The position numbers and the translations under genes were made by a program. A stretch of 5,282 bases of DNA from a bacterium (GTDB lineage Bacteria; JAMCPX01), in the NCBI GenBank assembly GCA_021789095.1, contig JAJYJX010000150.1:1-5282 (forward strand), in the 5' to 3' direction. Of this stretch, positions 1 through 5,061 are shown piece after piece (position 1 is the first letter of the stretch; every line of letters starts with the position of its first letter). The notes beneath the pieces are model-generated. The model ran no database searches. It saw nothing but the letters and a program-made list of their open reading frames with translations, and had not been told where the DNA came from.

Positions 1-456
1 GCAATCGGCGACCCTTCAGTATATGAAGAAGTGGTTTTTGTCGGATACGGCGAACCCACACAGAGGCTTGATATTGTTATAGCTGTGAGCAGGTGGCTGA
101 GGGATCACGGTGCAAAAAGGATCAGGCTTGATACTGACGGGCTTGCCAACCTTCTCTACGGAAGGGACGTAACAAAAGAGCTTTCACAGCACCTTGATGC
201 AGTCTCTGTTAGCCTGAATGCGCCGGACGCAGGGGCCTACGCAAAGCTTTGCCCGAATCCGTACGGAGAGGCATCCTATCATGCGGTCACGGAATTCATA
301 AAGCATGCCAAAAAGAATTTCAAAAACGTCGTTGCAACGATGGTTAATCTGCCGAATATCGACATTGAAAAAACACAGGCTGTTGCAGAGGAACTTGGCG
401 TGAAACTGAGGGTGAGGCAGTACTACAAAGAAAGCCTGCGGTACAAGTCGGATTAA
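1..456 (+). CDS. TatD-associated radical SAM protein, C-terminal part (5' end outside window)
   Basis: The frame is open from the first base and ends at TAA 454-456, giving 151 residues of a longer protein. The stretch VVFVGYGEPTQRLD near the start matches the GEP motif of radical SAM barrels, which contacts the S-adenosylmethionine amino group. It is followed by a strand with LDTDGLANLLYGRD and then VSVSLNAPDAGAYAKLC, ending in EELGVKLRVRQYY. This order of motifs is what I know from the radical SAM family linked to TatD nucleases (TIGR04038 type). The CX3CX2C cluster motif would lie upstream of the window and cannot be checked. The substrate of that family is unknown. QueE or an activase-like radical SAM enzyme is a less likely alternative, because the GLANL and SLNAPD motifs are distinctive. 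There is no terminator-like hairpin between its stop and trpB. Confidence 0.85.
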   Translation, partial: AIGDPSVYEEVVFVGYGEPTQRLDIVIAVSRWLRDHGAKRIRLDTDGLANLLYGRDVTKELSQHLDAVSVSLNAPDAGAYAKLCPNPYGEASYHAVTEFIKHAKKNFKNVVATMVNLPNIDIEKTQAVAEELGVKLRVRQYYKESLRYKSD

Positions 457-477: not shown

Positions 478-506
478 TTGACACCATATACTTATAAAAG
501 TATAGT
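478..506 (+). promoter_or_regulatory. Sigma-70-type promoter for trpBA
   Basis: A perfect -35 box TTGACA (478-483) is followed by a 17-base spacer and TATAGT (501-506), which matches the -10 consensus TATAAT at five of six positions. The usual geometry puts +1 seven bases past the end of the -10, at base 513, which is exactly the A of the trpB ATG. The site sits in the only gap between the radical SAM gene and trpB, which fits an independent promoter for the tryptophan synthase pair. It was found by eye and its activity is inferred. Confidence 0.7.
487..504. promoter_or_regulatory. Candidate operator palindrome over the trpB promoter
   Basis: TATACTT (487-493) and AAGTATA (498-504) are perfect reverse complements separated by ATAA. 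The resulting 18-base palindrome covers the second half of the promoter spacer and the first four bases of the -10 box. A repressor bound here would block RNA polymerase, and the E. coli TrpR operator occupies a comparable place over its promoter. The sequence lacks the CTAG half-site core of the E. coli operator, so any regulator need not be TrpR. AT-rich palindromes also occur by chance, and the one here partly reflects the -10 box itself. Confidence 0.35.
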
Positions 507-512
507 CTTTGC

Positions 513-1724
513 ATGAAAAAATCTGAGAGTAAGAAATCCCTACCTGATGCCCGTGGTTATTTTGGTGAGTACGGAGGGATGTTTGTGCCTGAAACCCTTA
601 TATCTGCACTGCAGGAGCTTGAAAGAGGATACAATCGTATTGCCGGTACACCATCCTTTCAAAAAGAGCTGAGATATTATCTTGAACACTATGCAGGAAG
701 GCCCACGCCGCTTTACTTTGCATCAAGAATGACTGCAGATCTTCATGGCGCCAGGGTATACCTGAAAAGAGAGGATCTTGCCCATACAGGTGCACACAAG
801 ATCAACAACACCGTTGCACAGGTCTTGCTTGCGAAAAAGCTCCGAAAAAAGAGGATCATAGCAGAAACGGGAGCAGGCCAGCACGGGGTCGCGACTGCAA
901 CTGCGGCCGCATTGTTCGGGCTTGAGTGTGAGGTTTACATGGGTGATCTCGATATAAAAAGGCAGGCGCTGAATGTTGACAGGATGCGGTTACTGGGTGC
1001 AAAGGTTATCCCTGTTTATTCAGGCTCAATGACATTAAAAGATGCGATGAATGAAGCAATACGGGACTGGGTTACGAATGTTGAAACAACACATTATGTA
1101 ATAGGTTCTGTGGCAGGCCCGCATCCTTATCCGCGCATGGTAAGGGATTTCCAGTCTGTTATCGGCAAAGAGGCAAAAGGGCAGATCGTTAAACTCGAAG
1201 GCAGACTGCCTGACGTGCTTATTGCATGCGTTGGTGGCGGAAGCAATTCAATAGGGTTATTTTATCCGTTTATAGGATATAAGGATATCGAGCTTGTCGG
1301 AGTGGAAGCAGGCGGCCTTGGTATTGAAACAGGCAGGCACGGTGCATCCTTAACCGCCGGTGAAAAAGGGGTACTGCATGGATCCATGACAAAGATCCTT
1401 ATGGACCGCGACGGCCAGATTATAAACCCTCATTCTGTTTCAGCGGGTCTTGATTATCCCGGCGTTGGTCCGGAACTGAGTTATTTAAAGGATGCCGGCA
1501 GGCTGAAAGTTTATCCTGTAAAAGATGATGAAGCCCTGTCTGCAACAGTATACCTTTCAAGGAAAGAGGGTATTATCCCTGCGCTTGAAAGTGCGCATGC
1601 AATAGCCTTTGCAATGAGATATGTACCAAAACTGCCGAAGCGGTCTCTTGTTGTCATAAATGTATCGGGCAGGGGTGATAAAGATATGGATATCATAAGA
1701 GAACACATAAAACTCGGAGGATGA
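513..1724 (+). CDS. trpB: Tryptophan synthase beta subunit
   Basis: TrpB is the cytoplasmic PLP enzyme that condenses indole with L-serine to give tryptophan, in an alpha2-beta2 complex with TrpA. At 403 residues it is close to the 397 of E. coli. The N-terminus carries [31 protein letters not shown] includes the PLP lysine K96, equivalent to E. coli K87, preceded by H95. AETGAGQHG contains the catalytic glutamate E118, equivalent to E109. GGGSN (241-245) is the cofactor phosphate loop, [11 protein letters not shown] carries the conserved aspartate, and NVSGRGDKD supplies S385. All key residues are present, so this is an ordinary TrpB1-type enzyme rather than TrpB2. An in-frame TAA at 495-497 rules out a longer start. 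No Shine-Dalgarno sequence precedes the ATG, and the promoter places transcription start at the ATG itself. The stop is one base from trpA. Confidence 0.98.
1716..1720 (+). promoter_or_regulatory. Ribosome binding site of trpA inside the end of trpB
   Basis: GGAGG lies five bases before the trpA ATG at 1726 and is part of the last sense codons of trpB. This fixes the trpA start and fits translational coupling, which keeps the two subunits in equal amounts. It contrasts with the absence of any such site before trpB. Confidence 0.85.
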
Positions 1725-1725
1725 C

Positions 1726-2517
1726 ATGGTCAGCCGCATTGATGAAACATTCGGCGCATTGCATGGAAAGGGCGAAAAGGCACTCATAGCATACATCATG
1801 GCTGGTGATCCGGATATACAAAAGACACAGTCCTACACATATGCACTTATAAAAGGCGGTGCCGATATCATAGAGCTTGGTATGCCCTTTTCAGACCCTA
1901 TTGCGGATGGCCCTGTTATACAGAAAGCTGCACAGCGTGCTCTTGGCTCGGGAACAAATATAAGCAGCATACTCGAGCTTGTCCGGAATATCAGGCGGGC
2001 ACACAGTACACCCGTGATCCTTATGGGTTATTTCAATCCTGTGTTCAAGTATGGAGCAGAGCAATTTTTCATTGATGCGGAGAAAAGCGGTGTAGACGGT
2101 GTGATCCTTCCGGACATTCCGTTAGAGGAAATAGGTGCTGTTACGCCGTATGCCGGCAAGTATAATATCGATATTATTCTGCTTGCGGCACCTACATCAG
2201 GCAGAAACAGGCTTTTACAGCTTTCAAAACACACAGAGGGATTCCTGTACTACATATCGTTAACAGGCGTAACAGGCGCGTCGAAAGGAATTGACAGCCA
2301 GGTAATCAGCAGCATTCAGTGGCTTAAAAGGAAAACACAAAAGCCTGTTGCTGTGGGCTTTGGTATTTCAACGCCTGAGCAGGCAGCTATGATAGCCGAA
2401 GTTGCTGACGGGGTTGTTGTAGGCAGTGCATTTGTAAAACTCATAGAAAGTCACGATGATGCATCCAATGATCTGCTCGCCTTCGCCCACGCCCTGAAAA
2501 ATGCTATAAAAGAATAA
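1726..2517 (+). CDS. trpA: Tryptophan synthase alpha subunit
   Basis: TrpA cleaves indole-3-glycerol phosphate to indole and glyceraldehyde 3-phosphate and channels the indole to TrpB. The 263 residues form a complete TIM barrel of the usual length (E. coli 268). ELGMPFSDPIADGPVIQ holds both catalytic acids, E50 and D61, equivalent to E. coli E49 and D60. Further family motifs are AYIMAGDPD near residue 26, VILMGYFNPVFKYG near 97, GVILPDIPLEE near 125, AAPTSG, YYISLTGVTG around 176 (loop 6) and the phosphate-binding segments GFGIS (211-215) and VVVGSAFV near 230. The ATG is supported by GGAGG five bases upstream. It is the last gene of the plus-strand unit and is followed by a repeat-like gap. 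No residue loss or frameshift is visible, and no other tryptophan gene lies in the window. Confidence 0.98.
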   Translation: MVSRIDETFGALHGKGEKALIAYIMAGDPDIQKTQSYTYALIKGGADIIELGMPFSDPIADGPVIQKAAQRALGSGTNISSILELVRNIRRAHSTPVILMGYFNPVFKYGAEQFFIDAEKSGVDGVILPDIPLEEIGAVTPYAGKYNIDIILLAAPTSGRNRLLQLSKHTEGFLYYISLTGVTGASKGIDSQVISSIQWLKRKTQKPVAVGFGISTPEQAAMIAEVADGVVVGSAFVKLIESHDDASNDLLAFAHALKNAIKE

Positions 2518-2721: not shown

Positions 2722-3072
2722 TTAATCCAGCTTTATCACCCTGTTTTCTATCATGAAATAGAAGATCTCTTTTGTGTATTCATCGGGAGTCATTTCAAAA
2801 CTATCAAAATCGAACAGGGACATCAGTACATCTTTTAATTCTTCAAAACCCTCGGGCCTTTCCTTTTGCAGGGTTTCCACAATAACCCATTCGTCGCTGT
2901 CCTTCGGGAACGGGTTCTTTATGCACTGCACAGTAAAATGTATATGCTGAAGCTCGCTCTCATCAATGGCCAGATCATCTGCATACTCGTCGAGGTCCTC
3001 GCCTTCGTCATCATCGTAAAGCTCAAAATCATCACCTTCATTATCGCTGTCATCATATCTTTTTTTGTCCAT
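2722..3072 (-). CDS. Small acidic protein of unknown function, overlapping mqnA
   Basis: The protein has 116 residues. The first 40 contain 21 aspartates or glutamates and only three basic residues, so this part is probably disordered. Residues 40 to 116 look folded, with a mix of hydrophobic and charged residues (HIHFTVQCIKNPF, DEWVIVETLQKERPEGF, EEIFYFMI-type C-terminus ending in RVIKLD). I see no signal peptide, membrane segment, cysteine motif or known catalytic motif and do not recognise the family. The ATG overlaps the end of mqnA by 20 bases and is preceded by an AAGGGGG Shine-Dalgarno stretch about nine bases upstream, inside mqnA. That supports both the start and translational coupling to mqnA. 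Its position as the last gene of the mqn unit suggests a link to quinone synthesis or simple co-transcription; neither is shown. An out-of-frame artefact is unlikely given the good ribosome site. Confidence 0.75.
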   Translation of the reverse strand: MDKKRYDDSDNEGDDFELYDDDEGEDLDEYADDLAIDESELQHIHFTVQCIKNPFPKDSDEWVIVETLQKERPEGFEELKDVLMSLFDFDSFEMTPDEYTKEIFYFMIENRVIKLD

Positions 3073-3847
3073 CTGCAGCCACCCCCTTAATTTTCTTTAT
3101 GGAATCGGTAAATAGTTCAAGGCTCTTATCAACTGCATCCGTCCGGTTATAGATAAACAGGTGCCAGTAATTTTCAATAAAATCTGCCGGAATAAGTAAT
3201 TCTTTCGACCTTTTCTGTGCCATCTCTTTTTCGTTTTGCCAGAATACGTTCAGGGAATTTTTAAGCAGGCCTGTAAGATAATCCTTTTCATGCCCGGGGA
3301 CAGCTTTTCTTATTGCCCAAACAGCAAAGACAAAGGGTAGACCGGTCCACCTGCGCCATTCCTCGCCCAGGTCGTATATATACTCAAAATCCTTCAGGCC
3401 TTTATAAGTATACACAAGTGCATTATTGCCTATGAACAGATACGCGTCAACCTGTCCGTGCTCAGGCTGCTCCAGATACTCTGCCGGGGTTATACCATAG
3501 CGGTGTTCGAGTATTAACCTCAGAAGTACTCTTGAAGTGGAAGTTTGGGATGTTATGCCTATCCTGCACTTGTCAAGTTTCTCGATCGGATGTTTTGAAA
3601 ACATGGTGACACTGCCTGCTTTTTCCTTTACGGCGACGCACATCCTGTCAAGCGGTTCATACCTGTACTGAAGCTTCAAAAAGTCCATAACGGATATAGG
3701 TCCTGCATCAATGGTATCCTGCTCTTCGGCAAGCCTTCCGATCTGTCTTGGGTAACCCGGTATAAGCTCGGCACCTTTTTCTGCGGCATGTTCAAGCGTA
3801 TAGTAGAATGGATCTACGTTTATATACGGCATCCTTGCAATCTTCAT
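3053..3847 (-). CDS. mqnA: Chorismate dehydratase (futalosine menaquinone pathway)
   Basis: MqnA removes water from chorismate to give 3-enolpyruvyl-benzoate, the first step of the futalosine route to menaquinone. The protein of 264 residues has the periplasmic-binding-protein-like fold of the MqnA/MqnD family. Visible signatures are RMPYINVDPFYY at the N-terminus, DAGPISVMDFL at 48-57, the FSKHPIEKLD segment near 83, GITSQTSTSRVLL near 97, DAYLFIGNNAL near 134 and DLGEEWRRWTGLPFVFAVW near 159. The last is typical of MqnA rather than MqnD. I chose ATG 3847 because family members begin just before this IARMPYIN segment. A GTG at 3880 would add 11 residues but lies inside the inverted repeat upstream and has no ribosome site. 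No strong Shine-Dalgarno precedes 3847 either; the closest purine run, AGGG, is 14 bases away. mqnE lies upstream and makes use of the product. The end overlaps the acidic gene. Confidence 0.92.
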   Translation of the reverse strand: MKIARMPYINVDPFYYTLEHAAEKGAELIPGYPRQIGRLAEEQDTIDAGPISVMDFLKLQYRYEPLDRMCVAVKEKAGSVTMFSKHPIEKLDKCRIGITSQTSTSRVLLRLILEHRYGITPAEYLEQPEHGQVDAYLFIGNNALVYTYKGLKDFEYIYDLGEEWRRWTGLPFVFAVWAIRKAVPGHEKDYLTGLLKNSLNVFWQNEKEMAQKRSKELLIPADFIENYWHLFIYNRTDAVDKSLELFTDSIKKIKGVAADGQKKI

Positions 3848-3861
3848 GTAAGTATCTTTTA

Positions 3862-3941
3862 CCCTGTTAGAAGCGTACACAATGAAGAGCCATTATGTTC
3901 TGTCAGAAAATTATCTCTCATATAATATGCTTCTAACAGGG
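3862..3941. repeat. 80-base element with perfect 13-bp inverted repeats between mqnE and mqnA
   Basis: CCCTGTTAGAAGC (3862-3874) and GCTTCTAACAGGG (3929-3941) are perfect reverse complements. After one G/T mismatch two more pairs (TA/TA) extend the stem to 16 positions. The centre holds TTCTGTCAGAA (3898-3908), itself a palindrome with an odd centre and a relative of the arm sequence. On the transcribed minus strand the element starts one base after the mqnE stop codon and ends 14 bases before the mqnA ATG. No T tract follows, so it is not a standard terminator. It could be an mRNA stem that protects or separates the two cistrons, a protein-binding site, or a small MITE; TTA at 3859-3861 and 3943-3945 is a weak candidate target duplication. 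Confidence 0.7.
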
Positions 3942-3942
3942 G

Positions 3943-5061
3943 TTACCTGTAGATCTTTATGACTTTGTATTCTCCGTTTCTCTGTGCAGGTATATAACCT
4001 GTACCTTTAATCATGGAAATCATCTTGTTTTTTGTCAAGCCTGCCGGCGTCGATGCACCAGCAGCGTGAGCTACCCTTTCTTTGCCGATGGTGCCGTCAA
4101 TATCATCAGCGCCGAAATGCAGCGCTATCTGGGTAATGCCTTCTGAAAGCATTACCCAGTACGCCTTTATATGGGGGAAATTATCCAGGTATAATCTTGA
4201 AAGTGCTATAATTTTTAACTTCCTTATGCCTGCAGGCGTGTGTACCATGTTATGCAGCGGCGTATTTGCCGGATGAAAAATAAGGGGCACGAATGTCAGG
4301 AACCCGGATGTCTCATCTTGCAGCGAACGAAGCTGTTCAAGATGGGATATAATATCATCATCCGTTTCAATATGACCGTAAAGCATTGTTGCGTTTGTTT
4401 TAATGCCCATGGAATGGGCTGTCCTGTGTGTGCGCAGCCATTCATCCTTTGACTCCTTACCCCTGAAGAGTTCCGACCTTATGCTGTCCGACAGTATCTC
4501 TGCACCACCCCCGGGCATCGTATTAAGTCCGGCATCAACAAGTCTTTCGAGTACCTCTTTAACATTCATCCCAAAAAGCTTTGCAAAGTACCCTATCTCT
4601 GTTGCTGTAAACGCCTTTATTGTTATGGAAGGGAAGTGTGAGCTTATTCCCCTTATCATCGAAATATAATAGTCAAACTGTAAATCAGGATGCAGCCCCC
4701 CCACTATGTGGACCTCGTCGAGCTCATTGCCGCACTTATGCAGCTCCCCGATAATTTCTTCAATCGTCATTGTATAGGCATCTGCCGCATGTCTACCTTT
4801 TGCATATGCACATACCTTGCAGTGAACACTGCATATATTGGTGTAATTGATCTGTTTGTTTACCGTAAAGTATACAAGTCTCCCGTTTAACTGCTGTTTT
4901 TTATAGTCTGCCATTGCACCTATAAAATGAATGTCATTGGAATTCAGTATAAGATGTGCGTCTTTCCTGTTGATCCTTATGCCCTCGAGTAATTTCTCCG
5001 CCGCAGTTGAAAGTGAAGCATCCACATAAGGTATACCAAAATATTTTTCCATGCTGTGCAT
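3943..5061 (-). CDS. mqnE: Aminofutalosine synthase, radical SAM (futalosine menaquinone pathway)
   Basis: MqnE uses a radical SAM reaction to add the adenosyl part of S-adenosylmethionine to 3-enolpyruvyl-benzoate, giving 6-amino-6-deoxyfutalosine. The 372 residues have the iron-sulfur motif C77-X3-C81-X2-C84 within NYTNICSVHCKVCAYAKG, the HIVGGLHPDLQFDYY motif at 118-132, IKAFTATEIGYFA near 148, and GLNTMPGGGAEI at 178-189. NATMLYGHIET at 223-233 is typical of this family. HFGADDIDGTIGKERVAHAAGAST near 315 separates MqnE from MqnC, which reads differently at this site. The residue before the last cluster cysteine is valine instead of the usual aromatic. ATG 5061 follows the upstream stop by four bases. 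A second ATG (M4, 5052) is possible, and neither has a Shine-Dalgarno sequence, so re-initiation after the upstream gene is plausible. mqnA follows on the same strand. Confidence 0.95.
   Translation of the reverse strand: MHSMEKYFGIPYVDASLSTAAEKLLEGIRINRKDAHLILNSNDIHFIGAMADYKKQQLNGRLVYFTVNKQINYTNICSVHCKVCAYAKGRHAADAYTMTIEEIIGELHKCGNELDEVHIVGGLHPDLQFDYYISMIRGISSHFPSITIKAFTATEIGYFAKLFGMNVKEVLERLVDAGLNTMPGGGAEILSDSIRSELFRGKESKDEWLRTHRTAHSMGIKTNATMLYGHIETDDDIISHLEQLRSLQDETSGFLTFVPLIFHPANTPLHNMVHTPAGIRKLKIIALSRLYLDNFPHIKAYWVMLSEGITQIALHFGADDIDGTIGKERVAHAAGASTPAGLTKNKMISMIKGTGYIPAQRNGEYKVIKIYR

Follow-up and report, generated by a model that had tools for sequence, protein, structure and literature searches.

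A promoter kept six nucleotides ahead of trpB across genera points to a leaderless trpBA mRNA

The window analyzed here, a stretch of 5,282 nucleotides that makes up all of contig C92 in a draft genome of 2.15 Mb (G000; 92% complete, in 203 pieces), holds a canonical trpB gene (trpB1) directly followed by trpA, these two being the only trp genes at the locus. They are preceded on the same strand by the end of a radical SAM protein gene and face a group of genes transcribed from the opposite strand. The features considered below are as follows.

1-456, plus strand: 3′ part of a gene for a TatD-associated radical SAM protein (TIGR04038), ending 56 nt before trpB
478-483, plus strand: -35 box TTGACA, 6/6 match to consensus
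484-500, plus strand: 17-nt spacer
495-497, plus strand: TAA stop codon in frame with trpB
501-506, plus strand: -10 box TATAGT, 5/6 match to consensus
507-512, plus strand: 6-nt gap CTTTGC between the -10 box and the ATG
513-1724, plus strand: trpB, canonical TrpB1 type, 403 aa (TIGR00263, 608 bits against a cut-off of 392)
1716-1720, plus strand: GGAGG, a Shine-Dalgarno (SD) sequence 5 nt ahead of the trpA ATG
1726-2517, plus strand: trpA (TIGR00262, 274 bits), starting 1 nt past the trpB stop codon
3053-3880, minus strand: unassigned 275-aa ORF, possibly MqnA-like
3943-5061, minus strand: gene for a radical SAM protein of the MqnE/MqnC/CofH family

The minus-strand genes of positions 2722-5061, which are convergent with trpBA, are of the menaquinone (futalosine-pathway) type and include a 116-aa acidic ORF. 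The ~200 nt separating them from trpA (2520-2725) carry terminator-like sites on either strand, along with an inverted repeat (2653-2670).

The start codon of trpB, an ATG at 513-515, directly follows the 507-512 gap. With 11 of 12 consensus positions matched at 17-nt spacing, the promoter ahead of it is the joint best promoter-like site found in the window by a consensus scan. The preliminary description of this DNA had read TTGACA, the 17-nt spacer and TATAGT as placing the expected +1 on the A of the trpB ATG, and had noted an in-frame stop at 495-497 precluding any earlier start as well as the lack of an SD sequence; the coordinates proved exact, the stop codon is present, and no SD-like purine run was seen on reading 507-512 and the sequence upstream of it, nor was an SD sequence found before trpB in the aligned relatives. 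Since the TAA bars earlier starts and the next in-frame ATG (codon 23) already falls within the conserved TrpB core, position 513 is the sole usable trpB start. trpB thus combines a true AUG start and no SD sequence with a -10 box 6 nt before the start codon, within the 5-7 nt that characterize leaderless genes, and, judging from this spacing, its transcription is predicted to begin at A513, the first base of the start codon. Folding of 457-560 and 513-572 gave structures no stabler than those of shuffled sequences, so that nothing sets the predicted 5′ end apart structurally; with no Rfam match in the window either, a hidden RNA element was rejected. A perfect inverted repeat (TATACTT-ATAA-AAGTATA) lies within 484-506 and overlaps the -10 box; it was considered as an operator and rejected, as it is not kept in relatives.

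To assess the conservation of this arrangement, we turned to eight further genomes of this family, six of which have trpB with readable upstream DNA. The promoter-to-ATG architecture is kept exactly in five of the six, reading TTGACA-17-TATAGT-6-ATG in G001, G008, G007 and G006 and TTGACA-17-TATAGA-6-ATG in G003; in G006, the promoter and first trpB codons close contig C14, which overlaps the start of a separate trpB contig. Among the six promoter-keeping genomes (the window and five relatives), the -35 box has the same letters throughout and the -10 box is TATAGT in all except G003, yielding mean pairwise identities of 1.00 and 0.94, respectively. Spacer and gap are invariant in length while their letters vary (0.50 and 0.43), and the DNA just upstream of the promoter is at the random level (0.26). 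At the third codon positions of trpB, identity of the relatives to the window's genome is 0.39-0.48. The neighborhood differs too: trpB is preceded by the radical SAM gene in the window, by a different long ORF in G001, G008 and G007 (UvrD-like from its letters only), and by a divergent gene in G003. That the boxes are kept even though the upstream genes differ indicates that the promoter is maintained independently of its neighbors, and in G003, where the upstream gene is divergent, trpB needs a promoter of its own. G002 is the exception, with trpB lying ~30 nt behind another gene and no boxes, showing that not every family member has the arrangement. Since a single genus accounts for four of the five supporting relatives, the comparison amounts to about three independent lineages rather than six. 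Boxes and promoter-to-ATG spacing are kept across genera and no longer leader is, so that the earlier proposal of a leaderless trpB mRNA, with its predicted 5′ end, withstands the comparison of relatives that it had named as a possible refutation. Among 102 distant trpB start regions, a single one has a promoter matching at least 9 of 12 positions 5-8 nt upstream (at 8 nt); leaderless trpB thus looks like a family trait.

The second gene of the pair presents a different picture. The strong GGAGG before trpA, pointed out earlier, is real in this genome; it is not conserved in the relatives. In G001 and G008 the 3′ end of trpB overlaps the trpA start (ATGACTGA), and in G003 a single nucleotide separates the trpB stop codon from trpA, which has no strong SD sequence. 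These overlapping or 1-nt junctions, lacking a shared strong SD sequence, make translational coupling the more general description of trpA, which is probably coupled to trpB. The idea that the two subunits rely on different initiation modes holds for the genome under study, but the strong trpA SD behind it is not shared with the relatives.

The remaining tryptophan genes were found on another contig, as was a gene of the enoyl-CoA hydratase family to which we return below.

L267 (contig C30 of G000), 182-6929, minus strand: trp operon, in the order TPR protein-trpE-trpG-trpD-trpC-trpB2-trpF
L267, 7115-7888, minus strand: enoyl-CoA hydratase-family gene, adjoining the trp operon on its upstream side (also in L268, L270, L271 and L273)

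In this operon, trpE, trpG, trpD and trpF were named from reading the ORFs and trpC from an IGPS match; the trpB2 gene between trpC and trpF encodes a 449-aa protein of the TrpB-like type (NF009057, TIGR01415). The same order is found in G001, G003 and others, as far as contigs reach. The operon has a conventional promoter, a short leader and GGAGG in most genomes; the same search pattern did not pick it up in G003. TrpR (PF01371) was found in none of the nine family genomes, including the 92% complete one under study, with the E. coli and B. subtilis controls positive, and no Rfam family reached its gathering score in the window. At trpB, we found no 5′ leader with a leader peptide or RNA-binding site and a terminator. 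That a leaderless start would rule out attenuation in a 5′ leader, as had been suggested, stands for the transcript from the trpB promoter and does not apply to one that may enter from upstream: the radical SAM gene is on the same strand and the window scan detected nothing resembling a terminator from 456 to 513, making this gene a possible source of a second, readthrough transcript.

Next, the nine family genomes were scanned for the pattern TTGACA-17-TATANT-d-ATG with at most one mismatch, and matches with an intact ATG only were tallied by hand. Shifted spacings served as the main null in place of a reversed-pattern control, in which the ATG is lost. There were 61 matches at d = 6, compared to 20 at d = 9 and 9 at d = 3, such that sites at the trpB spacing are 3-7 times commoner than at spacings 3 nt longer or shorter. 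Perfect matches numbered 13 at d = 6, five of which are trpB itself, and one each at d = 9 and d = 3. Eight genome stretches picked because they held matches did not enter the unbiased counts; in stretches not so picked, the excess was small and spread over 6-7 nt. In the genome survey, where start calls are approximate, a plain -10 scan before predicted starts returned a weak excess at 6 nt, attributable to most promoters lying farther upstream and to the roughness of the start calls, which made the spacing comparison on whole promoters necessary, and SD matches of at least 6 nt preceded 112 of 546 starts compared to 8 of 472 positions inside genes. The lineage is thus mainly SD-using, and its leaderless genes form a small but real class. 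No 16S rRNA gene was found in the 92% complete draft of the genome under study.

Other genes share the promoter arrangement. The enoyl-CoA hydratase-family gene beside the trp operon carries TTGAAA-17-TATACT (TATGCT in G001) 6-7 nt before its ATG in five genomes, and is predicted to be a second conserved gene of the leaderless type. A LexA-like regulator (TIGR00498, borderline: 110.8 bits, cut-off 110.95) is found among the d = 6-7 cases in G006, G007 and G004 (L157, L141 and L143). Its promoter spacer is a palindrome, GCGAACGATCGTTCGC (or GCGAACGTTCGTTCGC), which is probably its own operator. A small putative antitoxin of 82-83 aa with a ribbon-helix-helix look and a weak family match only occurs in G000, G006 and G001 (L147, L148 and L149); its promoter is nearly identical in the three genomes (TTGACATAGGTATTAC...) and ends 6 nt before the ATG. 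Further leaderless-type promoters in the genome under study precede TetR-like, dephospho-CoA kinase and Phd-like genes.

Leaderless genes headed by a TATAAT-like box ("TA-led" genes) were described by Zheng et al. in 2011 as a small class in many bacteria (PMC3160421). trpB resembles them in having such a box with its first T ~12 nt ahead of the start codon, an ATG start and no SD sequence, and in belonging to a minority class in a mid-GC genome; it differs from them in its perfect TTGACA at 17-nt spacing and in that its product is not a regulator but a core biosynthetic enzyme. The word "tryptophan" does not occur in the searched text of that paper, nor is trpB named there. For Leptospira interrogans (PMC5243855) and Corynebacterium diphtheriae (PMC5784534), dRNA-seq/RNA-seq mapping has revealed leaderless transcripts, with 5′ untranslated regions of 0 or near-0 nt that were measured in these organisms and are predicted for trpB. 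At 37 °C, the leaderless mRNAs of Leptospira are enriched in amino-acid metabolism genes, although trpA-trpB of this organism sit within a longer operon, unlike the trpBA pair of the window (PMC5243855). The trp operon of C. diphtheriae, in which trpB1 comes first, has a trp leader peptide and is in this respect the opposite of the window trpB (PMC5784534). The region at 478-512 is, like that of E. coli-type attenuated trp operons, the control region of tryptophan-synthesis genes; in contrast to theirs, the trpB promoter cannot yield a leader transcript, and neither an Rfam match in the window nor TrpR in the family accompanies it. As in the genomes surveyed by Merkl in 2007 (PMC1854888), two kinds of trpB coexist in one genome. 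Where both types were present in that survey, trpB1 usually resided inside the trp operon and trpB2 outside of it (the i1_o2 species, with trpB2_o outside); here, conversely, trpB2 lies inside trpEGDC..F and trpB1-trpA outside.

Altogether, the trpBA mRNA is very probably leaderless and transcribed from a sigma-70-type promoter at 478-512, a reading built on comparison of sequences. From this region a two-gene trpBA unit would be transcribed, presumably by the housekeeping sigma-70-type RNA polymerase. With the -10 box 6 nt before the ATG, the first transcribed base would be the A of the start codon or one no more than 1-2 nt away from it, and ribosomes may engage the 5′-terminal AUG without an SD sequence. 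Coupling, or reinitiation at the stop codon of trpB, would then allow trpA to be translated off this mRNA, with help from GGAGG in the genome under study.

It is rather unlikely that the promoter is genuine with a start displaced by 1-5 nt, for instance to the G at position 511, in which case the mRNA would bear a very short SD-less leader and be functionally leaderless-like. Sigma-70 start sites do scatter over a few bases, position 511 is a purine 5 nt past the -10 box, and the clustering of family promoters at both 6 and 7 nt from the ATG suggests some tolerance; yet the gap is exactly 6 nt in all six trpB copies, the A of the ATG falling 7 nt past the -10 box, while the bases in between are variable. 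We likewise consider it very unlikely that trpB is expressed mainly by readthrough from the radical SAM gene, on a longer mRNA with non-SD initiation and with the promoter playing a minor part. Readthrough alone would not preserve the promoter boxes of trpB, which persist as the upstream genes change and are found in G003 next to a divergent gene, even if the shared strand, the 56-nt gap devoid of a terminator-like site and the promoterless trpB of G002 close behind another gene are all compatible with it.

A chance resemblance to a promoter in an AT-rich intergenic gap has to be considered because weak sites come cheaply, the consensus scan having returned 17 promoter-like sites in the window against 9.2 expected in shuffles. 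However, of the 22,470 ATGs in 554 kb of this genome outside of the window, 1 has a promoter match of at least 11/12 in the register of trpB, and the trpB promoter is kept in five relatives against saturated divergence. The rarity of the match and the register kept in the relatives together exceed chance, and we regard this explanation as extremely improbable.

Leaderless trpB adds a well-supported example to a phenomenon already known, and provides a clean comparative one: a core metabolic enzyme with leaderless initiation in a mostly SD-using lineage, known here only from draft genomes. The trpB start codon would double as the transcription start, with the exact spacing selected across genera. 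One trp gene pair can thus do without a 5′ leader, which excludes classical attenuation for that transcript, while the rest of the tryptophan pathway is laid out in a separate operon with a second trpB type. More tentatively, and with considerable doubt on our part, the canonical trpB1-trpA pair of this family may have left the trp operon, where a trpB2-type gene now resides, and be kept under a leaderless promoter of its own. If so, trpB1-trpA output would be set by promoter strength and 5′-AUG initiation, without attenuation or TrpR, and the conditions of translation would differ between TrpB1A and TrpB2, for example under stress favoring leaderless mRNAs.
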